A stretch of DNA of 64,000 bases from Pseudomonas sp. DTU_2021_1001937_2_SI_NGA_ILE_001 (lineage in GTDB: Bacteria > Pseudomonadota > Gammaproteobacteria > Pseudomonadales > Pseudomonadaceae), in NCBI RefSeq assembly GCF_032463525.1, contig NZ_CP135971.1:186001-250000 (forward strand). The letters run 5' to 3'. The position numbers were made by a program, and so were the translations under genes. Under the pieces are notes generated by a model, which did no database searches, had not been told where the DNA came from, and worked only from the letters and a program-made list of their open reading frames with translations. Positions within the stretch are counted from its first letter, which is position 1, and the number at the start of each line of letters is the position of its first letter. Of this stretch, positions 16,288-51,885 are shown one piece after another.

Positions 16288-16337
16288 GGTGGGGGCGGCT
16301 TTAGCCGCAATACTGGTCAGTTAGACCGGGTAGGAGC
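16288..16337. repeat. Left part of a REPIN interrupted by IS110
   Basis: A REP copy (GGTGGGGGCGGCTTTAGCCG from 16288) and the first bases of its inverted partner, ending TTAGACCGGGTAGGAGC at 16337. The rest of that second REP (GCGGCTTCAGCCGCGA) resumes at 17509, so the insertion sequence split a REP within its stem. Confidence 0.8.
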
Positions 16338-16368
16338 CAACTGTCTTTCACCGAAGATCGACCAACGG

Positions 16369-17298
16369 TCAAATTGCACCCTCTCGCCATGGTGCACCAT
16401 CTCGCACCATGGCGTTTAACCTCACCAGCAGGACTCGCATGCACGCCGTCAGCGCCACCTTCGCGCACTTACCTCGGGCGCGAAGTTGAGCGTATCGGTT
16501 CTTGAAGTCCTCGTTGTAACGGACCATCACCAAGGTACTCATGTACATCGCACGGCGTAGCTTCGCGCGTCCGCCGTAAATGTGCCGGTTACCGCGCTTA
16601 GTCCCACTGTCGTTGTTGTAAGGCGCCACTCCTGCCAAGGCCGCCACCTGTCCACGACTCAGATCCCCCAGCTCGGGCAGATAGCAAAACAGGCTGGAGA
16701 TCGACACCGCGCCGATGCCTTTGATCGCTTGCAGGCGGTCCACCAAGGCCCCATCGACCTGTCGAGTCTGTGCAGCAATGCGTCGGTCTGCTGCCTTGAT
16801 CATCTCTTGGATTTTGGCATTGAGCTCCCGATAGGCCTGCTGCACTTCAGGTTCTTGCGCTTGTTGAATACGGCGACGGTTGTCATCACGCTGCTGAACG
16901 AAGGCGTCACGCTGGTTCACCAGTTCGGTCAACTTATCGCGCGCTTCATCGGCCACCACAAACTCTTTCTTTCGCAAGGCATGGGCGAACATGGCCAGCA
17001 TCTGCGCATCGATCGAGTCGGTTTTGGCTTGCTTGCCCATGGCCAGAGCGAACTGGCGAGCACGCAGCGGATTGATACGCATGACCTTGAATCTGGCCTT
17101 GGCCAGGAGTTTGACCGATAACCTTTCATAGCCGCCTGTGGCCTCAACCAGTACCTGCTCGACCCGGTTATCACTCAACCATTGGATAAGCTGGTGGATT
17201 CCTTCAGAGGTGTTGGTGGTGCAGAAGCTATTGCTCTGGGGATACAGCGCAATCTGCAGGGTATCTTTGGCGACATCGATTCCGGCGTAGGCGGTCAT
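16369..17298 (-). CDS. IS110-family transposase (bridge-RNA-type recombinase)
   Basis: A 309-residue DEDD recombinase. The N-terminal RuvC-like domain shows D in YAGIDVAKDT, E in LVEATGGYE and the D residues of KTDSIDAQML. A central coiled coil spans about residues 105-160. The C-terminal Transposase_20 domain has LQAIKGIGAVSISSL (helix-hairpin-helix-like) and the catalytic-serine region GVAPYNNDSGTKRG. It is full length and without stops, so the element may be active. It starts at ATG 17298. In IS110 systems this protein works with a bridge RNA encoded next to it, for which a candidate is visible at 17300-17507. Confidence 0.93.
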   Translation of the reverse strand: MTAYAGIDVAKDTLQIALYPQSNSFCTTNTSEGIHQLIQWLSDNRVEQVLVEATGGYERLSVKLLAKARFKVMRINPLRARQFALAMGKQAKTDSIDAQMLAMFAHALRKKEFVVADEARDKLTELVNQRDAFVQQRDDNRRRIQQAQEPEVQQAYRELNAKIQEMIKAADRRIAAQTRQVDGALVDRLQAIKGIGAVSISSLFCYLPELGDLSRGQVAALAGVAPYNNDSGTKRGNRHIYGGRAKLRRAMYMSTLVMVRYNEDFKNRYAQLRARGKCAKVALTACMRVLLVRLNAMVRDGAPWREGAI

Positions 17299-17299
17299 A

Positions 17300-17507
17300 A
17301 GAAAAACCTCTAGGCTTAAGGGCGAGAGGTCACTCTGAACGGGCTCACGCTTGTTGTTCGAGGTCGGACTCAGTCAACTGTTCGAGCTTGGAGTCAGAGT
17401 GAAAAGAGTGGATGGCAGTTGGGCTCCTACACGTGCTCCAGGGCACCGCGGCTTAACAGTTGCCATCCACCCCTCTCACCTCTGACTTTACCCTGTCGAA
17501 AGACACA
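17300..17507 (-). ncRNA. Candidate IS110 bridge RNA
   Basis: On the minus strand, upstream of the transposase, two hairpins with guide-bearing internal loops are visible. The target loop has outer stem GTGGATGGCA (17408-17417) with TGCCATCCAC (17461-17470) and inner stem GTGC/GCAC. Its two loop sides contain GCTCCTAC (17423-17430), complementary to the left REP flank GTAGGAGC, and GCGGCTT (17448-17454), identical to the right flank. The donor loop has outer stem TCACTCTGA (17330-17338) with TCAGAGTGA (17394-17402). Its sides contain CAACTGT (17375-17381), identical to the left element end (16338-16344), and GCTTGT, the complement of the right end ACAAGC. The order target loop, donor loop, recombinase is as described for IS621-type bridge RNAs. 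Confidence 0.8.
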
Positions 17508-17508
17508 A

Positions 17509-17600
17509 GCGGCTTCAGCCGCGAGGCGACGGCATGTTCACAGCAGATGCAGTGAATTTCCTGGCGCTTTCGCGGCTAAAGCCGCTCCCACCGAGCCCCG
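17509..17600. repeat. Right part of the interrupted REPIN
   Basis: It resumes with GCGGCTTCAGCCGCGAGGC, then the usual spacer (GCATGTTCACAGCAGATGCA) and the inverted REP (GCTTTCGCGGCTAAAGCCGC, 17566-17585). Together with 16288-16337 it makes one complete REPIN. Confidence 0.8.
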
Positions 17601-17639
17601 TGACGCTTAACCGAACAGTATTGTCTGTAGGCTGTTTCA

Positions 17640-18200
17640 CTATTCATCGAAAGGCAGTGCTGTATCCGAGCCTCTTCGCACTTCAAACACATTCAGGGTC
17701 ATGGCCACCAGCGTGTAGTAGCCGTATACGCCGACCAGTTCGACCATTCCTTGTTCACCGAACAAGGTCACGCCTTGCTGGTAAAGATCGGCAGGGACGC
17801 GGCGGGTTTCGTAAAGCGCTTTGCCAATGTCATAAACACACTGTTCATCCTGCTGCTCGAACGTGGGTGTCTTCTGCTGCTTGAGTGCTTCCAGTACTGC
17901 ATCAGAAAGCCCCGCGCCTTTGGCAATAGGCTCATGGATTTGCCACTCGGCTTGCGAACGCCACCAGGCTGCCGTGGTAAGAATCGCCAACTCGCTCAAG
18001 CGCAGTTCGAGCCCGGTACCGTACCGGCAGAATGCACCCAGCCGCTGTGCATGATCGGCCAGCGACGGGCTGTGAATCCAGGCCAGGAAAGGACCATCGA
18101 GATTGCCCCGCGGCCCCTGGAGAATCTCGGCCAGCACCCTTTGCTGATCATCCGTCATGGCGCTGCTCGGCAAAGGGCTCAACCGGGAAGTGATGTCCAT
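17640..18200 (-). CDS. Carboxymuconolactone decarboxylase family protein
   Basis: A 186-residue all-helical protein of the CMD/AhpD-like family. The core FLAWIHSPSLADHAQRLGAFCRYGTGLELRLSELAILTTAAWWRSQAEWQIHEPIAKGAGLSDAVLEAL is the standard CMD repeat, with the conserved E/W-H pattern. The redox CxxC pair of AhpD is absent, so a peroxidase role is unlikely. The family includes 4-carboxymuconolactone decarboxylase and many proteins of unknown substrate. It starts at ATG 18200 with AGAGAGA upstream. The adjacent gene is an FtrA-type regulator in the same direction. Confidence 0.85.
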   Translation of the reverse strand: MDITSRLSPLPSSAMTDDQQRVLAEILQGPRGNLDGPFLAWIHSPSLADHAQRLGAFCRYGTGLELRLSELAILTTAAWWRSQAEWQIHEPIAKGAGLSDAVLEALKQQKTPTFEQQDEQCVYDIGKALYETRRVPADLYQQGVTLFGEQGMVELVGVYGYYTLVAMTLNVFEVRRGSDTALPFDE

Positions 18201-36095: not shown

Positions 36096-36167
36096 GCTCC
36101 AGCCCTGCTGATTCACCCACGCCCTATCAGGCGGTGTGGTGAATCAGCACGGCTGGAGCGTTTTTTT
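36096..36167 (+). terminator. Strong rho-independent terminator after DUF1348
   Basis: GCTCCAGCC (36096-36104) pairs with GGCTGGAGC (36151-36159), and TGCTGATTCACC (36106-36117) pairs with GGTGAATCAGCA (36138-36149), with one C-C mismatch between them. This makes a 22-position stem, followed by seven T (36161-36167). It ends 178 bases after the stop of the gene. Confidence 0.85.
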
Positions 36168-36250
36168 GCGCCCCTGTAAAGCTCGCTCTGCCTGCGTTGA
36201 ACGCTGCCCGAGTGCGCGCCGGAATTACCCTGCGACACCTTTGAGAACGC

Positions 36251-36334
36251 TGGAGCCTGCTTGCGAAGGCCGCGTCATGTTCATGGCAGAAGCGCTGGCT
36301 TTGCCGGCCTCTTCGCGAGCAAGCTCGCTTCCAC
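36251..36334. repeat. REPIN of the GCGAGCAAGCTCGC family
   Basis: GGAGCCTGCTTGCGAAGGCC (36252-36271) faces GGCCTCTTCGCGAGCAAGCT (36306-36325), an imperfect inverted pair. It belongs to a different REP family from the tandem array that begins 16 bases after it. Confidence 0.6.
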
Positions 36335-36349
36335 GGTCGCAAAGCGCTT

Positions 36350-36990
36350 GATCGAACAGTTAGACCGGGTAGGAGCGGCTTCAGCCGCGAAGCGGTCGCC
36401 TGTTCACAACGGATGTGCAGGGAATTTCCTGGTGCTTTCGCGGCTAAAGCCGCTCCCACCGGGCTGAGCATGCCGCTTGATCGAACAGTTAGACCGGTTA
36501 GGAGCGGCTTCAGCCGCGAAGCGATCGCCGGTTCACAACGGATGTGCAGGGAATTTCCTGGTGCTTTCGCGGCTAAAGCCGCTCCCACCGGGCTGAACAT
36601 GCCGCTTGATCGAACAGTCAGACCGGGTAGAAGCGGCTTCAGCCGCGAAGCGAGCGCCTGTTCACAACGGATGTGCAGGGAATTTCCTGGTGCTTTCGCG
36701 GCTAAAGCCGCTCCCACCGGGCTAAACATGCCGCTTGATGGAACAGTTAGACCGGGTAGAAGCGGCTTCAGCCGCGAAGCGACCGCATGTTCACGACAGA
36801 TGCAGTGAATGTCCTGGCGCTTTCGCGGCTAAAGCCGCTCCCACCGGGCTGAGCATGCCGCTTGATCGAACAGTTAGACCGGGTAGGAGCGGCTTCAGCC
36901 GCGAAGCGATCGCCGGTTCACAACGGATGTGCAGTGAATTTCCTGGTGCTTTCGCGGCTAAAGCCGCGCCCACTGGGCCACATGCCGCTT
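36350..36990. repeat. Tandem array of five REPIN units (127-129 bp each)
   Basis: Five head-to-tail units start at 36350, 36479, 36608, 36737 and 36864; the next GATCGAAC is at 36991. The period is 129, 129, 129, 127 and 127 bases. Each unit holds GATCGAACAG, a REP (GAGCGGCTTCAGCCGCGAAGC), a spacer with TTCACAACGGATGTGCAG, and the inverted REP (GCTTTCGCGGCTAAAGCCGC), so each is a whole REPIN. Units differ at a few positions (for example CGGTCGCC, CGATCGCC, CGAGCGCC, CGACCGCA). Because 129 is divisible by three, long frames run through the array; they are not genes. The following 36991-37227 shows nothing recognisable. Confidence 0.93.
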
Positions 36991-39896: not shown

Positions 39897-39922
39897 AAAA
39901 AACCCGCCGAAGCGGGTTTTTT
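39897..39922. terminator. Bidirectional rho-independent terminator
   Basis: AAAAAACCCGC (39897-39907), loop CGAA, GCGGGTTTTTT (39912-39922): a perfect stem with A-run and T-run, usable from either side. It stands 165 bases after cynR and upstream (minus strand) of the hydrolase remnant. Nothing further is recognised in 39923-40320. Confidence 0.8.
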
Positions 39923-40320
39923 GTCCCAGACCATCCCACCTCCCTGTCGGCAGTATCCCTTCACGGTCGATCGTCCCTGATCCTGGCGAGCATCCTGTTC
40001 GCCAGTGGTTGGATCCAATACTAGGCCTGTGCCTTGGGGTAGAAAATGGCGATTTCCCGCGATCGCGTGTAAGCCTTTGGCTATACCTACGTAATCTGAC
40101 AGTCCTGTAGGCGATTTCCGGCAACGTCGGTGGCAATGATTGCAAGAAGCCGTCCTTCCGCTTGCAGGATATTTCTGAAAAAATCCCGCCCGCTTGCGCC
40201 CCGTACCCCCGCTCTCTACGCTGCCTGCCGTCGCTGAAGCCAGCGGCAGGGCTTGGCCGCCCGCAACGTCCGAAGTATGGAGATAGCGCGTCAGCGTGTT
40301 CGTGGGTACCCGTTATCCGC

Positions 40321-40473
40321 GCAACGTCATGGCAGCTGCGCAAGGGACACCTTCGGGTGTGCCGGGTGATCTCCTACCGTCCGGTCGGCCAACCCTTGTG
40401 CAGTTGCCACCCCATTCGTTTGGCCGCGGGTTGGGTCGGTGATTCCTGTTCATGCAGCCAGTAGGAGTACGCC
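40321..40473 (+). promoter_or_regulatory. Structured leader before DUF6124-like gene
   Basis: Contains a UUCG-capped hairpin, ACACC-TTCG-GGTGT (40347-40360), then GCCGGG, a GGTCGGCCAACC segment, and GTTGCCACCCC before the ribosome site. From memory, genes of this small Pseudomonas family carry a leader of similar text, so it may be a conserved cis-acting RNA. Its role is unknown. Confidence 0.4.
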
Positions 40474-42390: not shown

Positions 42391-45300
42391 ATGCCAGCCC
42401 GTGCTGCCGACTGTTTTGCGCTGAGCGCCGCCCAACGAGACATCTGGCTCGACCAGATCAGCCATGGCGACTCGCCCCTCTATAACATCGGCGGGTACGT
42501 GAAGCTGAGCGGGCCCCTGGAGGCCACGACGCTGCACCAGGCGCTGGAGCACCTGGTGGCGGCGCACTCGGCCTTGCGCACGGTGATGGTCCCGGGCCAG
42601 GACAGCGATGGCCTGCCGCTGCAGTGCTTCGCCGCGTCGATGCCCGTCAGCCTGCCGTTGCACGACCTCAGCCAGCGGGCTGAGCCGGTCGCGGCGGCGC
42701 AGCGCCTGGTCGACGAGCAGATGCAGCGTCCTTACCGGCTGTATGACAGCCCGCTGTTCAGCTTCTGCCTGATCCGCCTGGCTGCCGAAGAGCACTGGCT
42801 GGTGACCCAGGCCCACCACCTGATCCTCGACGGCTGGGGTTTCGGGCAGATGATCAAGGCGCTTGGCGAGCACTACACCGCGCTGTGCCAGGGCAGCAGC
42901 GTCGAGGGCGAGCCGCTGTGCTACAGCAGCTTCATCGCGGACGACCAGCGTTACCGCCAGTCCAGCCGCTTCCAGCACGACCAGGCCTACTGGCTCGCCA
43001 AGTACCAGGACCTGCCCGAGCCGGTACTCACCCCGCGCCAACGTGGTCGTGCCGCTGGCGCCGAGACGCCTGCGCACACCTGGGTGCAGGCGCTACCGGC
43101 CACGCTGCACGAGCGTATGCAGGCGCTTGCGCAACGCCAGCGGGCGTCGGCCTTTCATGTGCTGCTCGCCGCCTTGCATGTGTATTTCACCCGCACCACG
43201 CAGCGCCCGGAATGGGTGGTGGGCATCCCCCTGCTCAACCGCACCGGGGCACGCAACAAGGCCACCCTGGGGCATTTCGCACAGGTCAGTGCGGTGCGCC
43301 TGGACACCCCGGCACAGGCGGATTTCGCCAGCCTGATCAGCGAGGTGCGCGACCGCCTCAAGCGTGATTTTCGTCATCAGCGCTTCCCGCTGAGCGAACT
43401 CAATCGCAGCCTCGGCCTGTCCCCCGAAGCGCGTGGGCAGCTGTTCGAGGTATCGGTTTCCTACGAGCAGGAAGACCACGACTACCGCTATGGCGATGCC
43501 CGCGCCAGCACCTTGAAAGTCTCCAACGGCCACGAAAGCACACCCTTGGCCGTGCACCTGCGCAGCAACCGCCACACTGGCGACACCTGGCTGCATCTGG
43601 TCTACAACCGTGCCTGGCTGGCGCATGAGCAAGCCCAAGCCATTGGCGCACGGCTGCTGCAGGTGCTGGAGCAGGGGCTGGAAAACCCGGCGCTGGCAAT
43701 CGCCGAATTCGAGCTGCCGACTCCGGCCGAGTGCCAGCGCATGGCCGCCTGGAACGCCACCCACATGGCCACCCTCGACCCGTTGCTGATTCATCGGCGC
43801 ATCGAACGTCAGGCGCGTCAGCAACCGGATGCGTTGGCGGCGCGGCACCTCGACCAGCAGCTGACCTACGCGCAACTCGACCAGCGCGCCAACGCCCTCG
43901 CCACACGCCTGATCGAATGCGGCGCTGGCCCGCAGACCCGTGTGGCGGTGGTCTGCCAGCGCGGTCTGGACACCCTCGCCGGGCTGCTGGCGGTACTCAA
44001 GGCGGGCGCCGCCTACGTGCCCGTCGACCCGGCGCATCCCCAGGAACGCCTGGCCTATCTGCTGACCGACAGTGCGCCGGCGGTGGTGCTGACCCAAGCC
44101 GCGCTGCTCGAACGCCTGCCGCCGCTGGCAGTACCGGTCGTGGCGCTGGAGGCCGTGACATTGCAGGCGGCCGATCTTCAGCCTGCGCAGCTCGACGAGC
44201 AGGGCAACGACCTGGCCTACGTCATCTATACCTCCGGTTCGACCGGCCAGCCCAAAGGGGTCATGGTCGAGCACCGCATGCTCGCCAACCTCGTGGACTG
44301 GCACTGCGCAGCTTTCGATGTGCAGCCGGGCACCCAGACCTCCTGCCTGGCCGGCTTCGGCTTCGATGCCATGGCCTGGGAGGTCTGGCCGACCCTGTGT
44401 GCCGGCGGCACCCTGCACCTGGCGCCGGTGCAGGAGGGCGGCGACGATGTCGAAGCCTTGCTGGACTGGTGGCGTGCCCAGCCGCTTGAGGTCAGCTTCC
44501 TGCCCACGCCGGTGGCGGAACATGCCTTTGGCCATGCGCAGGAGCACCCGACCTTGCGCACCCTGTTGATCGGCGGCGACCGCCTGCGTCAGTTCAGCCA
44601 GGCGCGCCGCTACACGGTGATCAACAACTACGGCCCCACCGAAACCACCGTGGTCGCCACCTCTGGTGCGTTGCAGCCCGACGCCTGCCTGCACATCGGC
44701 GGGCCGATCGGCAATACCCAGGTCCATGTGCTGGACGCACACCGGCAACCGGTGCCGGTCGGCGTGGTCGGTGAGCTGTACATCGGTGGGGCAGGGGTCG
44801 CGCGCGGCTATCTGAACCGGCCGGAACTCACCGCCGAACGTTTCATCGACGACCCGTTCAGCGCCGTGCCCGGTGCGCGGCTGTACCGCAGTGGCGACCA
44901 GGTGCGCTGGAATGCCGACGGCACTTTGGAGTACCTGGGCCGTAATGATGACCAGGTGAAGATTCGCGGCATGCGCATCGAGCCGGGCGAGATCGAAGCG
45001 GCCATCGCCGCCCGGCCGGGGATCAAGGACGCCGTGGTGCTGGTGCGTGACCAACACCTGGTGGCCTGGTTCACCGAGTCGGCCGCTGTCGATGTCGGCC
45101 AACTGCGCGACGCGCTGCGCGGGCAGTTGCCGGCTTATATGGTGCCGCGCGCTTTCGTGCGCCTGGAGCAGTGGCCACTGACCCGACACGGCAAGCTCGA
45201 CCGCCGCGCGCTGCCCGCACCGGATGCCGCCAGCCTGGACCTCAGCACCTACGAGGCGCCGCAAGGCGCGGTGGAAACCCGCATGGCCGAAATCTGGGCC

Positions 45301-48300
45301 GAAGTGCTGGGCACCGAACGGGTCGGGCGGCAGGACAACTTCTTCGAACTGGGCGGCCATTCGCTGCTGGCCATCGCGCTGGTCAAGCGCCTGCGCGGCG
45401 CTGGCCTGCAAGCCGATGTGCACACCTTGCTCAGCCACCCGAGCGTGGCCGCGCTGGCCGCCAGCGAGCAGCGCACTGCGGCGCTCAGCACCCCGGCCAA
45501 CCGTATCCCGGCTGGCTGCACGCAGATCACCCCGGAGCTGCTGAGCCTGACCCGGCTGAGCCAGGCCGAGATCGACGTCATCGTCGCCGGCGTGCCGGGC
45601 GGCGCGGGCAACGTCCAGGACATCTACCCGCTGACGCCCCTGCAAGAAGGCATTCTCTACCACCACCTGAGTGCCGGGCAGGGCGACCCGTACCTGCTGC
45701 AGTGGCGCCTGACCTTCGACTCGCTGGCGCGTCTGCAGGCCTGGGCGGCGGCGTTGCAGCAGGTCATCGAGCGGCATGACATCCTGCGTACCGCGCTGGT
45801 CTGGGAGGGTCTGGAAACGGCGCATCAGGTGGTATGGCGTCAGGCGCCGCTGTCGGTGCAGGCCATCGACCTCGACCCGCACGACACCCAGGGCTCGACC
45901 CTGGAACGCCTGCAGCGCCCGTTCGATGCCCGTCACCATCGCCTCGACCTGGCCCAGGCACCCTTGATTCGCCTGGTGCACGCCCGGCAGCCGGGCAGCG
46001 ATGAAATCGTGGCGATCATCCTGTTCCACCACTTGGTGCTGGACAACAGCGCCATGGAAACCGTCAGCCGCGAGATGGCGGCCATACTCGAAGGCCGCCG
46101 GGCCGAGCTGGCGCCGCCAGTGCCGTACCGCGACTACGTGGCCCAGGTACGCCTGGCCAGCGACGAGGCGCGGCACGCCGCGTTCTTCAGCGAGATGCTT
46201 GGCGATGTCGACGAGCCAACGCTGCCCTTCGGTCTGCAAGAGGTCGCGGCGGACGGCAGTGCCGTGGAAGAGAGCCGCCGTACGCTGAGCAGCGAACTCG
46301 CTTTGCAGGTACGTGAGCAGGCCCGGCGTGCCGGTGTGAGCGCGGCGAGCCTGTTGCACGTGGCCTGGGCGCGGGTGCTGAGTACCCTGGCCAAGCGTAA
46401 CGATGTGGTATTCGGCACCGTACTGCTGGGGCGCATGGGCGCGGAGGATGCCGACCGTTCGCTGGGCGTGTTCATCAACACCTTGCCGCTGCGGGTCGAA
46501 ACCGCCCTCGATACCCGTAGTGCAGTTCAGGCCGTACACGCCCGGCTGTCGGCGCTGATCGCCCACGAACAGGCTTCGCTGGTACTCGCCCAGCGCTGCA
46601 GCGGTGTGGCGGCCGGTACACCCTTGTTCAGCGCCTTGCTCAATTACCGGCACAGTGCAGCGGTGAAACCACGCGAAGGCCAGGGCCTGTGGCAGGGCGT
46701 GCGCGTGCTGGGCGGCGACGTGCGCAGCAACTACCCGCTGACCCTCAGCGTCGACGATCTGGGTGAAGGTTTCGACCTGCACGTGCTGGCCCAGCAGGGA
46801 CTGGGCGCGCAGCGCATCGTCGGCTGGGTGCAGCACTGCCTGGAGCAACTGGTGCAGGCCCTGGCCTCGGCACCTGCGACCGCTCTGCAACTGCTGCCGA
46901 TCCTCAGCGCCGCCGAGCGTCGCCAGCTGCTGGACGCTGGGCGCACCCCGGCGCAGGCGTTCCCCCAGCATGCCGCCGTGCAGGCTCTGGTCGAGGCGCA
47001 GGCGCGTGCCTGTCCCGACGCGCCTGCGCTCATCCAGGCCGGGCAGGTGCTCAGCTACAGCGAACTGAACACCCAGGCCAACCGCCTGGCGCACCACCTG
47101 ATCGGCCTTGGCATCGCCCCAGAGCAGCGTGTCGCCCTGTGCCTGCAACGCGGCGTGCAGCGCGTGGTCGCCATGCTCGCGGTGCTCAAGGCCGGCGCCG
47201 CCTATGTGCCGGTAGACCCGGCGTATCCGGCCGAACGCATTGCCTATCTGCTCGCCGACAGCGATCCGCGTGTGGTGCTGACCGAAACCGCCACTGACGC
47301 CCTGGCTGCCGAGCGCCCGCGCCTGAACCTCGACTCGCCGGTCTGGCGGCAGGCTGCCGGGGGCAATCCCCAGGTGCCTGGTCTAGCGGCGCACAACCTC
47401 GCCTATGTGATCTACACCTCCGGCTCCACCGGGCAGCCGAAGGGCGTGATGGTCGAGCACCACACCCTGGAGAATCTGGTGCACTGGCACTGTCAGGCCT
47501 TTGACCTGGCGGCCGGCAGCCACACCAGCAGCGTCGCCGGTTTCGGCTTCGACGCCATGGCCTGGGAGGTCTGGCCGGCCCTGTGCAGCGGTGCGGTGCT
47601 GCACCTGCCGCCTATGGAGGTGGGCAATGAGCATGTCGATGAACTGCTCGACTGGTGGCTGCAGCAGCCGCTGCAGGTCAGCTTCCTGCCGACCCCGGTG
47701 GCCGAGCAGGCGTTGCGCCGTGCCCATCAGCACCCGACGCTGCGCACCCTGCTGGTCGGTGGTGATCGCCTGCGCCAGTTCGACCGCGACCCCGGCTTCA
47801 CGGTGGTCAACAACTACGGCCCTACCGAGACCACGGTGGTCGCCACCTCTGGCGCGTTGCGCCCGGGTGGTGCCCTGCACATCGGCCGGGCCATCGCCAA
47901 TACCTGGGTGTACGTGCTCGACGAACAGCGCCAGCCGGTGCCCGAGGGCGTGACCGGTGAGCTGTACATTGCCGGTGCCGGGGTGGCGCGCGGCTATCTG
48001 AATGCCGAGGCATTGACCGAGGCGCGCTTTGTCGCTGACCCGTTCAGCGCCAGCCCTGCTGCGCGCATGTACCGCAGCGGCGACCTGGTGCGCTGGAATG
48101 CCGACGGCACGCTGGACTACCAGGGCCGTAACGACGACCAGGTGAAGATCCGCGGCATGCGCATCGAGCTGGGCGAAATCGAGGCGGCGCTGGTCAGCCT
48201 CGACGCGGTGCAGGACGCCGTGGTGCTGGTCCGCGAGCAGCGCCTGCTGGCCTGGTTCACCGCAGCGGCCGAGGTGAGCGGCGAGGTCCTGCGTGAAGCC

Positions 48301-51300
48301 TTGCAGGCGCGCTTGCCGGCGCACATGGTGCCGCTGGTGTTCATCCGCCTGGACGCCTTGCCGCTGACCGCACACGGCAAGCTCGATCGCCGCGCGCTGC
48401 CCGACCCGGACCGCGATGCACTGCTCCGCCGTGCCTACGAGGCGCCGCAGGGCGAGGTGGAAGCGCGCATCGCCGCCCTCTGGGCGCAGGTGCTGGACGT
48501 GGAAAAGGTTGGCCGCCAGGACAACTTCTTCGAACTCGGCGGCCATTCGTTGCTCGCCGTGACCCTGGTCGAGCGCCTGCGCAGCGCCGGCCTGCCGGTC
48601 GATGTGCGGGTGCTGCTCGGCCAGCCCACCGTCGCCGCGCTGGCCGCCTCGGTCGGCAGTGGCCGTGAGGTGCAGGTGCCGGCCAACTTGGTGCCAGAGG
48701 GCTGCACGCGCATCACCCCGGAGCTGCTGAGCCTTGCCCGGCTCGACCAGGCAACGATCGACCGCATCGTCGCCGGCGTGCCCGGCGGCGCCGCCAACGT
48801 GCAGGAAATCTACCCGCTGGCGCCGCTGCAGGAGGGCATTCTCTACCACCACCTGACCGGCGAGCAGGCCGACCCCTATCTGCTGCAGCTGCACATGAAC
48901 GTCGACAGTCGCCAGCGCCTGGAGGCCGTCGTCGAGGCCCTGCGCCAAGTCATCGCCCGCCACGACAGCCTGCGCACCGCCGTGGTCTGGGATGGCCTGA
49001 CCACGCCGCAGCAGGTGGTCTGGCGCCACGCCGAACTGCGCGTCGAAGAAGTGCCGATGCTGGCCCGGCACAGTCAAGCCGCCCCGGCGCGCATGGACCT
49101 GACCCAGGCGCCGCTGCTGCGCCTGGAGTTCTGCCAGCGCTCAGACGGGGAAGGGCTGTCGGCCACCTTGCTGTTCCATCACATCGTGCTGGATGCCATG
49201 GCCCTGGAGGTGATGCGCGAGGAAATGCTCGCCCACCTGCGGGGCGATGCGCCGCCGACTCGGCCGGCGGTGCCGTATCGCAACTACGTGGCGCATGCGC
49301 GCCTGGGCATGAGTGAGGCGGAGCACGAAGCCTATTTCCGTGAGCAGCTGGGCGGCATCGAGCAGCCGACGCTGCCGTTCGACCTGCACGACGTACGAAG
49401 CGGCGAGCAGCGTCTGGAAGAGGCCTGGCAGCGCCTGCCCGACGCGCTGCTGCGGCGCCTGCGCAGCCAGGCCCGGCAACTGGGTGTCAGCCTGGCCAGC
49501 CTGTTGCACCTGGCCTGGGGCCGGGTACTGGGCGCGGCCACCGGCAACGGCCAGGTGGTGTTCGGCACTGTGCTGCTGGGGCGCCTGCAAGGCGGCGAGG
49601 GCGCCGACCGCGGGCTGGGCATGTTCATCAATACCCTGCCGCTGCGCGTCGACCTCGACGGCGTCGGCGTGCGCGACGCTGCGCGTGCCACCCATGCGCG
49701 GCTGGCCCAGTTGCAGGCCTACGAACACGCCTCGCTGGCCCAGGCCCAGCGCTGCAGCGCGGTGGGCGCTGCGCGGCCGCTGTTCAGCGCGATCCTCAAT
49801 TATCGCCACGCTGCCGGGCAGGCACGCCAGGATGCCCAGCGCGACGCCTGGCGCGGCCTGGAAATCCTCGACAGCGACAATCACACCCACTACCCGCTGA
49901 GCCTTAACGTCGACGACCTCGGCGAACGCCTGCGTGTCGGTGTGACCGCACCGCAAAGCGTCGGGGCACGGCGCATCGCCGAGCAGCTGCTGGAAGTGCT
50001 GGCAGGGCTGGTGAATGCCTTGGAAAGCCAGCCGGAACTCGCCCTGCAGCGCCTGCCGGTCTTGGCCGCTGAGGAGCGCAATCGTTTGCTGGTGGAATTC
50101 AATCGTTCGGCCTTGGCTTTCGACACGCAGTCCACCCTGCACGCGCTGTTCGAGGCGCAGGCGCGGCGCCTGCCGGAGGCCATGGCGGTGCTCAGCGAGC
50201 ACGAGCAGCTCAGCTACCGGCAGCTCAACGCGCGTGCCAACCGCCTGGCCCACCAACTGATCGTCTTGGGGGTGCAGCCCGATGACCGCGTGGCGCTGTG
50301 CGTCGAGCGCGGCGTGTCACTGGTGGTCGGCCTGCTGGCGATTCTCAAGGCCGGTGGCGCCTACGTGCCGCTCGACCCCAGCTACCCGCGCGAGCGCTTG
50401 CAGTACATGCTCGAAGACAGCGCGCCCACGGCGTTGCTGGTCCAGACTGGCACCCGCCCACTGCTCGACCCGCGGGGCCTGGCCTGCATCGATGTCGATG
50501 CCGACGACCCCGCCCAGCAGGCCACGCACGATCCGCAGGTGCCCGGCCTGGAGGCGAGCAACCTGGCCTACGTGATCTACACCTCCGGTTCCACGGGGCG
50601 CCCCAAAGGGGTGATGGTCGAGCATCGCAACGTGGTCAACCTGGTGCACTGGAGCGCTCGGCAGTTCCCTCAGGACGCGCAGGGCCGCGTGCTGCACAAG
50701 ACGCCGATCAGCTTCGATGCCTCGGTGTGGGAGCTGTTCTGGCCACTGTGCAGCGGCGTGCCGTTGCTGCTGGCACGCCCCGACGGCCAGCGCGACCCGG
50801 CCTACCTGGCGCAGCTGATCCGCGAATGGCGGGTCAGTGTGGTGCAGTTCGTGCCGGCGCTGCTCCAGCACTTCCTTGAGCTGCCGCAAAGCGCGGCCTG
50901 CGACAGCCTCACCGATATCGTCTGCGGCGGCGGCGAGCTGACCCCGGCGCTGGCCGGCCTGTTACGCCAGCGCCTGCCCAAGGTTCGCCTGCACAACGTC
51001 TACGGCCCGACCGAAGCCACCGTCGACTGCAGCGTCTGGACCCTGGCCCCGGAACAGCCGGTGCCTGAGCGCTTCCTGCCGATTGGCGGGCCGGTGGCCA
51101 ACACCCAACTGTACGTACTGGATGCCCACGACCAGCCGGTGCCGCTGGGCGTGGTCGGCCACCTGCACATCGGCGGGGCGGGGGTCACCCGTGGCTACCG
51201 CAACCTGCCGCAGGCCCAGGCCGAGCGCTTCATCGCCAGCCCCTTCGTAGCCGGTGAGCGGCTGTACCGCAGCGGCGACCTGGTGCGCCAGCACGCCGAC

Positions 51301-51885
51301 GGCAACCTGGAATTCCTCGGCCGCAACGACGACCAGGTCAAGCTGCACGGTCTGCGCATCGAACTGGGCGAGATCCAGACGGCGCTGGCGCAGTGCGCCG
51401 GTGTCGAGGACGCCGTGGTCATGGTGCGCGACGACGGCCCGGGTGGGCAGCGCCTGGTGGCCTATTACACCGGCACGCCGAGCGGCGCCGAGGTGTTGCG
51501 CGAGGCGCTGCGCAGCCGGCTGCCGGACTACATGCTGCCGGCCCTGTACCTGCACCTGCAGAACCTGCCGCTGAGCCCCAACGGCAAGCTCGACCGCCAG
51601 GCCCTGCCGGCCCCCGGCAGCGAGGCGTTGCCGGTACGCATTCACGAAGCCCCGCAAGGTGAAATGGAAGCGCTGCTCGCCGACCTCTGGCGCGAGCTGC
51701 TGGGCGTGGAGGCGGTGAGCCGGCATGACAACTTCTTTGAACTCGGTGGCCACTCGCTGTTGGCCATCAGCCTCACCGCACGCTTGCGGCAGGAAGGCAT
51801 CGAGGCCGACGTCCGCGCCTTGTTCGAGCAACCGACACTGGCCGGTTATGCCGCCATCACAGAGAGCATGGAGATTTTCCTGTGA
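42391..51885 (+). CDS. cifA: Three-module lipopeptide NRPS: Cs-A(Leu)-T, C/E-A(Leu)-T, C/E-A(Gln)-T
   Basis: A 3164-residue non-ribosomal peptide synthetase. Module 1 has a starter C domain (HHLILDG at about 141) that attaches a fatty acyl chain, A (YTSGSTG at about 611) and T (Ser991 in LGGHS). Module 2 has a dual condensation/epimerisation C (HHLSAGQGD at about 1091), A and T (Ser2053). Module 3 has dual-type C (HHLTGEQAD), A and T (Ser3122). The specificity residues read by eye are D-A-W-F-L-G-N-V-V for A1 and A2 (Leu) and D-A-W-Q-V-G-V-V-D for A3 (Gln-type). There is no thioesterase; the chain passes to the next gene, whose GTG start overlaps this stop. Three modules Leu-Leu-Gln behind a LuxR gene match SyfA/CifA. 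The gene name is by this analogy. Confidence 0.9.
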   Translation: MPARAADCFALSAAQRDIWLDQISHGDSPLYNIGGYVKLSGPLEATTLHQALEHLVAAHSALRTVMVPGQDSDGLPLQCFAASMPVSLPLHDLSQRAEPVAAAQRLVDEQMQRPYRLYDSPLFSFCLIRLAAEEHWLVTQAHHLILDGWGFGQMIKALGEHYTALCQGSSVEGEPLCYSSFIADDQRYRQSSRFQHDQAYWLAKYQDLPEPVLTPRQRGRAAGAETPAHTWVQALPATLHERMQALAQRQRASAFHVLLAALHVYFTRTTQRPEWVVGIPLLNRTGARNKATLGHFAQVSAVRLDTPAQADFASLISEVRDRLKRDFRHQRFPLSELNRSLGLSPEARGQLFEVSVSYEQEDHDYRYGDARASTLKVSNGHESTPLAVHLRSNRHTGDTWLHLVYNRAWLAHEQAQAIGARLLQVLEQGLENPALAIAEFELPTPAECQRMAAWNATHMATLDPLLIHRRIERQARQQPDALAARHLDQQLTYAQLDQRANALATRLIECGAGPQTRVAVVCQRGLDTLAGLLAVLKAGAAYVPVDPAHPQERLAYLLTDSAPAVVLTQAALLERLPPLAVPVVALEAVTLQAADLQPAQLDEQGNDLAYVIYTSGSTGQPKGVMVEHRMLANLVDWHCAAFDVQPGTQTSCLAGFGFDAMAWEVWPTLCAGGTLHLAPVQEGGDDVEALLDWWRAQPLEVSFLPTPVAEHAFGHAQEHPTLRTLLIGGDRLRQFSQARRYTVINNYGPTETTVVATSGALQPDACLHIGGPIGNTQVHVLDAHRQPVPVGVVGELYIGGAGVARGYLNRPELTAERFIDDPFSAVPGARLYRSGDQVRWNADGTLEYLGRNDDQVKIRGMRIEPGEIEAAIAARPGIKDAVVLVRDQHLVAWFTESAAVDVGQLRDALRGQLPAYMVPRAFVRLEQWPLTRHGKLDRRALPAPDAASLDLSTYEAPQGAVETRMAEIWAEVLGTERVGRQDNFFELGGHSLLAIALVKRLRGAGLQADVHTLLSHPSVAALAASEQRTAALSTPANRIPAGCTQITPELLSLTRLSQAEIDVIVAGVPGGAGNVQDIYPLTPLQEGILYHHLSAGQGDPYLLQWRLTFDSLARLQAWAAALQQVIERHDILRTALVWEGLETAHQVVWRQAPLSVQAIDLDPHDTQGSTLERLQRPFDARHHRLDLAQAPLIRLVHARQPGSDEIVAIILFHHLVLDNSAMETVSREMAAILEGRRAELAPPVPYRDYVAQVRLASDEARHAAFFSEMLGDVDEPTLPFGLQEVAADGSAVEESRRTLSSELALQVREQARRAGVSAASLLHVAWARVLSTLAKRNDVVFGTVLLGRMGAEDADRSLGVFINTLPLRVETALDTRSAVQAVHARLSALIAHEQASLVLAQRCSGVAAGTPLFSALLNYRHSAAVKPREGQGLWQGVRVLGGDVRSNYPLTLSVDDLGEGFDLHVLAQQGLGAQRIVGWVQHCLEQLVQALASAPATALQLLPILSAAERRQLLDAGRTPAQAFPQHAAVQALVEAQARACPDAPALIQAGQVLSYSELNTQANRLAHHLIGLGIAPEQRVALCLQRGVQRVVAMLAVLKAGAAYVPVDPAYPAERIAYLLADSDPRVVLTETATDALAAERPRLNLDSPVWRQAAGGNPQVPGLAAHNLAYVIYTSGSTGQPKGVMVEHHTLENLVHWHCQAFDLAAGSHTSSVAGFGFDAMAWEVWPALCSGAVLHLPPMEVGNEHVDELLDWWLQQPLQVSFLPTPVAEQALRRAHQHPTLRTLLVGGDRLRQFDRDPGFTVVNNYGPTETTVVATSGALRPGGALHIGRAIANTWVYVLDEQRQPVPEGVTGELYIAGAGVARGYLNAEALTEARFVADPFSASPAARMYRSGDLVRWNADGTLDYQGRNDDQVKIRGMRIELGEIEAALVSLDAVQDAVVLVREQRLLAWFTAAAEVSGEVLREALQARLPAHMVPLVFIRLDALPLTAHGKLDRRALPDPDRDALLRRAYEAPQGEVEARIAALWAQVLDVEKVGRQDNFFELGGHSLLAVTLVERLRSAGLPVDVRVLLGQPTVAALAASVGSGREVQVPANLVPEGCTRITPELLSLARLDQATIDRIVAGVPGGAANVQEIYPLAPLQEGILYHHLTGEQADPYLLQLHMNVDSRQRLEAVVEALRQVIARHDSLRTAVVWDGLTTPQQVVWRHAELRVEEVPMLARHSQAAPARMDLTQAPLLRLEFCQRSDGEGLSATLLFHHIVLDAMALEVMREEMLAHLRGDAPPTRPAVPYRNYVAHARLGMSEAEHEAYFREQLGGIEQPTLPFDLHDVRSGEQRLEEAWQRLPDALLRRLRSQARQLGVSLASLLHLAWGRVLGAATGNGQVVFGTVLLGRLQGGEGADRGLGMFINTLPLRVDLDGVGVRDAARATHARLAQLQAYEHASLAQAQRCSAVGAARPLFSAILNYRHAAGQARQDAQRDAWRGLEILDSDNHTHYPLSLNVDDLGERLRVGVTAPQSVGARRIAEQLLEVLAGLVNALESQPELALQRLPVLAAEERNRLLVEFNRSALAFDTQSTLHALFEAQARRLPEAMAVLSEHEQLSYRQLNARANRLAHQLIVLGVQPDDRVALCVERGVSLVVGLLAILKAGGAYVPLDPSYPRERLQYMLEDSAPTALLVQTGTRPLLDPRGLACIDVDADDPAQQATHDPQVPGLEASNLAYVIYTSGSTGRPKGVMVEHRNVVNLVHWSARQFPQDAQGRVLHKTPISFDASVWELFWPLCSGVPLLLARPDGQRDPAYLAQLIREWRVSVVQFVPALLQHFLELPQSAACDSLTDIVCGGGELTPALAGLLRQRLPKVRLHNVYGPTEATVDCSVWTLAPEQPVPERFLPIGGPVANTQLYVLDAHDQPVPLGVVGHLHIGGAGVTRGYRNLPQAQAERFIASPFVAGERLYRSGDLVRQHADGNLEFLGRNDDQVKLHGLRIELGEIQTALAQCAGVEDAVVMVRDDGPGGQRLVAYYTGTPSGAEVLREALRSRLPDYMLPALYLHLQNLPLSPNGKLDRQALPAPGSEALPVRIHEAPQGEMEALLADLWRELLGVEAVSRHDNFFELGGHSLLAISLTARLRQEGIEADVRALFEQPTLAGYAAITESMEIFL

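Follow-up and report, generated by a model that had tools for sequence, protein, structure and literature searches.

A REP-inserted IS110-family element of Pseudomonas is predicted to encode a bridge RNA matching both its target and its own ends

How an insertion sequence comes to lie, copy after copy, at one fixed point of one short repeat is the question raised by a 64,000-nucleotide stretch of Pseudomonas DNA, here called the window. An element with its recombinase gene on the minus strand, 1173 bp long when the core dinucleotide is counted once, splits a repeat that we take to be a REP, since it is palindromic, is present in many copies and resembles published Pseudomonas REPs. Read from the sequence, the plus strand across the element is GTAGG-AG-CCAACTGT ... 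ACA-AG-CGGCTT. On the recombinase strand the split repeat is AAGCCG-CT-CCTAC, and the joined ends of the element would be ACAGTTGG-CT-TGTGT. Because the ends overlap by three bases (AGC / GCT), the cut can be placed only to within one base.

Eight copies were found in the genome to which the window belongs (5.66 Mb, G000): seven are full, and the eighth, of 423 bp, has an internal deletion. A check proposed in the preliminary description, that of asking whether other copies lie in the same REP site at the same core, gave 8/8 and none at unrelated sites: all are at AAGCCG-CT-CCTAC, facing the same way with respect to the REP and with no target duplication beyond the core, the cut being uncertain by the one base of the GCT overlap. 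Exact empty target 13-mers number 172 in this genome, and a reversed-letter control gave 7. No orphan RNA copies were found there, the eight matches to the RNA region being the eight element copies. A metagenome-assembled Pseudomonas genome (L010) has a 99%-identical recombinase and the same target. The 423-bp copy (L008 1501-1882; L009, G000 C1:548973-549395) is missing approximately 750 internal bases, retains both ends and the full RNA region, and is in a REP; it is either a deleted copy or one that moved in trans.

The recombinase matches NF033542 (E 9.1e-60, 202.6 bits with a cut-off of 140), and both PF01548 and PF02371 are found in it, in keeping with a DEDD RuvC-like domain and a Tnp domain with a catalytic serine. 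The only solved structures that match it at E 0.001 are IS621 and ISCro4, with the IS621 structure 8wt6 at E 4.4e-26. The catalytic residues of IS621, given as D11, E60, D102, D105 and S241 in PMC11208158, align with its D8, E52, D94, D97 and S231. With 209 non-coding nucleotides upstream of the gene and 32 downstream, the layout is that of the IS110 group. The IS1111 group is ruled out by the upstream position of the non-coding region and by the ends, near which there is just an 8-bp GAAAGACA/TGTCTTTC repeat and no long subterminal inverted repeats. By domains, aligned catalytic residues, upstream non-coding region and target, the element is a member of the IS110 family, IS110 group. No ISfinder name was present among the best 120 of 4577 proteins (protein search, E 1e-30 or better), plasmid and E. 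coli collections gave no match to the element at the limits used, and at gathering thresholds there is no Rfam match inside it, two hits in the window falling outside the element.

The left end, upstream of the gene, folds into two hairpins (Table 1), and just 1 of 200 shuffled sequences folded as well. Read on the recombinase strand, the first loop has AAGCCGC, an apical hairpin and then GTAGGAGC, matching both halves of the split REP, and the second, with ACAGTTG followed by ACAAGC, matches the element at both ends. The preliminary description had these matches right, as well as the order and the strand in which they occur, and each of the four guides occurs once in the 209 nt. The perfect stems it had proposed, one of 10 pairs for the target hairpin (GTGGATGGCA/TGCCATCCAC) and one of 9 for the donor hairpin (TCACTCTGA/TCAGAGTGA), are likewise present in the sequence, though in the minimum-energy fold the donor stem competes with the base of the target stem. 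Dinucleotide shuffling of the left end 20,000 times yielded both target guides together once and all four guides never, so the four matches together are not chance. The abundance of REPs and a partial complementarity between the target halves could suggest that the loop/flank matches are accidental or are remnants of REP DNA captured in the left end. Captured REP DNA would, however, be contiguous, whereas the halves here flank a hairpin, follow the order known from IS621 and differ from one host site to another; together with the shuffles, this makes accident or capture extremely improbable.

Table 1. Features of the element and its target in the window (positions are those of the window; a dash marks the minus strand)
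Feature	Position	Strand	Basis
REP target right half, CCTAC on recombinase strand	16330..16334		sequence; identical at 8/8 own copies
IS110-family insertion sequence, both core dinucleotides included	16335..17509	-	sequence; 7 full + 1 deleted genome copies
Core dinucleotide, right copy: AG, = CT on recombinase strand	16335..16336		sequence
Left donor half at element right end, ACAGTTGG	16337..16344	-	sequence; donor loop matches
IS110 recombinase, 309 aa	16369..17298	-	ORF; NF033542, PF01548, PF02371; IS621 8wt6
Left non-coding end encoding predicted bridge RNA	17299..17507	-	fold z -3.0; 41 consensus pairs, 11 changed on both sides, 20 sequences
Antisense match to Rfam sRNA family sX15 (RF02234), full length; possible antisense RNA	17321..17485	+	33.8 bits, E 3e-4, below gathering score 55
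Donor-binding hairpin	17343..17387	-	fold, 20-row alignment, guide search
Right donor guide ACAAGC, then G	17349..17354	-	ACAAGCG covers donor TGT, core CT, target CG; 20/20
Left donor guide ACAGTTG	17375..17381	-	invariant 20/20, but motif had been used to find rows
Target-binding hairpin; stem 17461-17477 with 17401-17417	17401..17477	-	fold, consensus pairs, guide search
Right target guide GTAGGAGC	17423..17430	-	7 guide bases match flank in 60/60 distinct flank combinations scored
Apical hairpin between target guides	17433..17446	-	four-pair stem, unvarying in 20 sequences
Left target guide AAGCCGC	17448..17454	-	guide search; guide/flank covariation
Predicted -10 box TAAAGT	17485..17490	-	17 bp from -35-like TTGGCT that spans joined ends
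Right donor half at element left end, TGTGT	17503..17507	-	invariant in 20/20 aligned left ends; belongs to motif used to find them
Core dinucleotide, left copy: AG, = CT on recombinase strand	17508..17509		sequence
REP target left half, AAGCCG on recombinase strand	17510..17515		sequence; identical at 8/8 own copies

Relatives came from 33 of 398 Pseudomonas genomes in a protein search at E 1e-40 and from 17 of 298 in a search with the RNA region, both counts including the own genome, and from 21 loci in named records. Twenty left ends were aligned, with L034, L083 and L087 skipped and near-identical rows merged, and the pairs that RNAalifold drew between left and right guides were left out of the count, as the palindromes make the guides complementary to one another. 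In the 41 stem pairs that were counted, 99.1% of cells are paired, and 11 pairs are changed on both sides; when partners were slid by 1-3 columns this number fell to 0-2. Four of five pair measures were above all 500 shuffles; the fifth, that of further pair types, was 21 against a shuffled mean of 22.6 and does not favour structure. G-U cells number 71 and A-C cells 4, a disparity that identifies the recombinase-sense strand as the one keeping structure, though the fold was computed on the sense strand and two near-constant pairs supply 37 of the 71. The donor guides are nearly constant, though their motif helped to find the rows; in 20/20 the ACAAG of the right one is followed by CG, complementary to the CG that precedes the core of most targets.

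The small conserved hairpin termed helix 6 in the left end holds the ribosome-binding site, and a folded 244-nt leader limits translation of ISPpu9 according to PMC8450116. A structured left end could, then, be a 5′ leader that hides the ribosome-binding site, with the recombinase protein alone recognizing the REP, for instance its hairpin. Against this, the matching letters are located in loops and not in stems, and the guide letters vary with the flanks while the stems remain paired. The recombinases of L011 and L032 are 75% identical, and yet their guides differ and their targets differ correspondingly. Recognition by protein alone is for these reasons very improbable, and a bridge RNA remains the preferred reading of the left end.

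The covariation between guides and flanks was assessed on 63 of 78 rows, the other 15 having no usable flank or loop and several of the rows used being duplicates of a single insertion. The 11 guide types give 109 matching bases out of 121, with a shuffled mean of 86.6 and 2 of 100,000 shuffles as high, figures that overstate independence as the types share ancestry. A site-by-site scoring, from which 7 rows with no scorable right flank were dropped, rows without a left flank or loop were skipped and in which identical-flank insertions were merged, left 60 distinct flank combinations. The right guide matches at 420/420 positions, but only three variants of it exist. For the left guide, 305 of 360 positions are Watson-Crick, 31 are G-U and 24 are mismatched, so that 11 of the 60 sites are Watson-Crick throughout and 40 are Watson-Crick or G-U. 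Its outermost position matches in just 42/60, and 24 of the 31 wobbles, all but one of them from a single guide type (23), are four bases ahead of the core. The P. psychrophila element L011 has guide AGCUCG and flank AGCTCG; in G018 the guide is CAUUCG and the flank AATTCG; and in P. massiliensis L019 guide CGUCCC and right guide UAGGAAG are accompanied by flanks CGCCCC / CTTCCTA. In the large P. laurylsulfatiphila-like group the guide is AGUCCG, and AGCCCG with right flank CTCCCAC was found at 23 of 24 distinct sites. Elements with guide UGCCCG are inside AGCCCC at 2 of 8 distinct sites, and the left flanks of two deviating relatives, L075 and L083, match poorly.

With IS621 the element shares the recombinase domains and catalytic residues, an upstream left-end RNA (predicted here) with the target loop followed by the donor loop, the assignment of guides to strands, the CT core, REP insertion, a junction promoter (likewise predicted here) and handshake bases after the right donor guide, whereas the REP is different and the recombinase distant (E 4e-26). 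The right target guide of IS621 has 4 pairs, and here 7 bases are matched, the core included; longer target guides are noted for some orthologues in PMC11208160. Of the two target guides it is the right that covers the core CT; the left covers the C in 10 of 20 RNAs and the T in none, and so, unlike that of IS621, stops short of the core T in 20/20. A left donor guide that reaches CT, with one mismatch intervening, is found only in the window, L011 and L032. The left-guide base G53 forms a non-canonical pair in the structure of IS621 (PMC11208158), and by the numbering adopted here the recurrent G-U at the fourth left-guide base before the core is at the G53 position.

Joining of the ends would also bring together a predicted promoter. 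TTG plus the core makes a -35-like box that is 17 bp from TAnnnT in 19 of 20 elements, no right end having been found for the remaining one; in the window, L011 and L032 the right end is longer by one G and the left end shorter by one base, which keeps the spacing at 17. In consensus scans of 17150-17650 no sigma-70 promoter was found on either strand. The boxes are weak, and in a free scan of the junctions the junction-spanning pair scored best in just 6 of 19; what the joined ends would form is a weak promoter for the bridge RNA. IS621 rebuilds a promoter at its joined ends and ISEc21 does so at its circle junction (PMC11208158 and PMC11187229). On excision, the joined ends of the present element would rebuild the -35/-10 promoter that drives bridge-RNA synthesis, and this RNA would be loaded into the recombinase. 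The target loop would recognize an empty REP on both strands, pairing through guide AAGCCG with the bottom strand of its left half and also with CTCCTAC of the top strand, and the donor loop would recognize the circle junction. Insertion, free of target duplication, would follow from serine/RuvC strand exchange at the CT core.

From copy placement, guide/flank covariation, compensatory stem changes, catalytic alignment with IS621 and the predicted junction promoter, it is very probable that the element transcribes a left-end bridge RNA whose target loop matches the split REP halves and whose donor loop matches its own ends. The earlier proposal that RNA guides account for the REP targeting is thus supported. 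The same proposal called the element a new programmable recombinase candidate; the candidate stands as a prediction, and the word 'new' has to be qualified, since the mechanism and a REP-directed Pseudomonas element, ISPpu10, are in print (PMC11208160).

Whether guides keep step with the REPs of their hosts was approached by counting five target 13-mers across 15 genomes, all of which carry the element. G000 has 172 AAGCCGCTCCTAC and 11, 0, 0 and 0 of the other four, and G018 has 134 AATTCGCTCCCAC and 1, 0, 0 and 0 of the others. G364, with guide AGCUCG/GUAGGAG, has 0 exact sites; all five copies fetched from it are in AGCCCGCTCCTAC, which is one G-U wobble from the guide and at 292 copies is the commonest variant counted there. 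(In three of these five copies, L060 and L097-L100, the protein match spans residues 132-307 only, with TAG.) The 13-mer that best fits the guide outnumbers each of the other four in 10 of 12 informative genomes (G000, G018, G364, G262, G363, G010, G127, G219, G308 and G289), the fit being inexact by a wobble in G364 and the AGUCCG group and by one mismatch in G018, G127 and G219. G289 has just 15 best-fit sites, most of its copies being in AACCCG, and the G308 copy L075 is in a poorly matching site. The best-fitting 13-mer is not the commonest in G310 (78 vs 329) and G156 (391 vs 1085), and in G161, G126 and G188 the copies' own target variant is outside the five counted. As only element-bearing genomes were examined, persistence only in hosts that have targets could explain the fit between guides and common REPs as well as guide change does.

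The opposite strand of the left end also needs to be kept in mind. It matches the Rfam family sX15, which Rfam files as a Xanthomonadaceae sRNA and models on the strand opposite to the bridge RNA; the expressed strand of sX15 is presumably that given by Rfam. By score the left end in the window is not a member, with 33.8 bits and a gathering score of 55. Nevertheless 11 of 13 relative loci scanned have a match, always antisense (L084 and L086 have none), and in three it is above gathering (L085 109.1, L061 57.9 and L019 56.0 bits). Among 274 gammaproteobacterial genomes, scanned with stricter filters that also missed the own genome, there was one strong hit, of 120.2 bits, and there was none in 14 control genomes. 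A truncated IS110 recombinase gene runs on the opposite strand with this hit immediately upstream of it, so that sX15, in this one genome hit, occupies the same type of locus. An antisense -10-like TACACT, common in relatives, overlaps with the ribosome-binding site and has weak -35 partners, and was for that reason set aside as evidence.

An antisense RNA over the leader of ISPpu9, Asr9, has been shown experimentally and is readily detected and very stable, according to PMC8450116. With this precedent and the sX15 matches here and in relatives, the main RNA of the left end might be the antisense strand, an sRNA of the Asr9/sX15 type that is a regulator and not a guide. A good antisense promoter was not found in the window, though, the sense strand is the one that keeps structure by the G-U count (with the fold derived on that strand), and an antisense RNA would leave the target match unexplained; it is very improbable that the antisense RNA takes the place of the bridge RNA, while the two could coexist. 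The sX15 match hints at an antisense partner of the bridge RNA, and we infer that sX15 may be of the same kind as Asr9, antisense to an IS110 left end. Among the open-access papers listed, with subscription papers and preprints outside the search, none was seen to tie sX15 to IS110 left ends, and in one of them sX15 is just a table entry. A wider joint reading is possible, if short of probable. In it, Pseudomonas REPs and IS110 elements would form a natural reprogramming series, in which target guides are rewritten to the REP variant of the current host, with G-U slack, and donor guides stay fixed. The left end would be read both ways. Its antisense RNA, conserved as Asr9 in P. putida and as sX15 in Xanthomonadaceae, would serve the bridge RNA as a dedicated partner, or as an antidote to it, throughout gammaproteobacterial IS110 elements, with sX15 as the mirror image of a bridge RNA.

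Both bridge RNAs and seekRNAs have been in print since 2024 (PMC11208160, PMC11208158, PMC11187229), with one predicted for ISPpu10, a bridge RNA, in the first of these papers; by 2006, IS elements of Pseudomonas had been reported to insert specifically in REPs (PMC1525189). With the mechanism and REP-directed ISPpu10 already known, the element is a further member of this kind. ISPpu10 and ISPpu9 of P. putida KT2440, compared here by description only, are also Pseudomonas IS110 elements at one fixed REP point (PMC1525189 and PMC8450116). Five of seven ISPpu9 copies are described there as having a downstream sRNA, for which the 32 bp from stop codon to core in the present element are too short. 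The ISEc21 seekRNA, a processed RNA of 74 nt, has, according to PMC11187229, the same upstream non-coding region and guides for both target strands, with the bottom-strand match before the top-strand one, whereas ISEc21 targets IS3-family transposase genes and the element here REPs. The present element is an example, worked through for a whole genome, of the way in which REP-directed elements locate REPs, and its relatives, as sibling recombinases with guides changed by nature, are a means of learning which guide positions tolerate change. An Rfam sRNA family tied to IS110 left ends makes antisense control of bridge RNAs directly testable.

Elsewhere in the window, an rsmX regulatory RNA and a C4 antisense RNA (72.4 bits), of a type known from phages, are at 39897-40010 (-) and 40325-40414 (+), about 315 bp apart on opposite strands. 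An open frame at 36127-36729 (-) has a near-identical stretch of about 40 residues three times (MFSPVGAALAAKAPGNSLHIRCEQ...) and is perhaps a repeat array read as protein and not a gene. Another open frame, of 3164 aa, at 42391-51885 (+) has repeated motifs resembling those of a non-ribosomal peptide synthetase.
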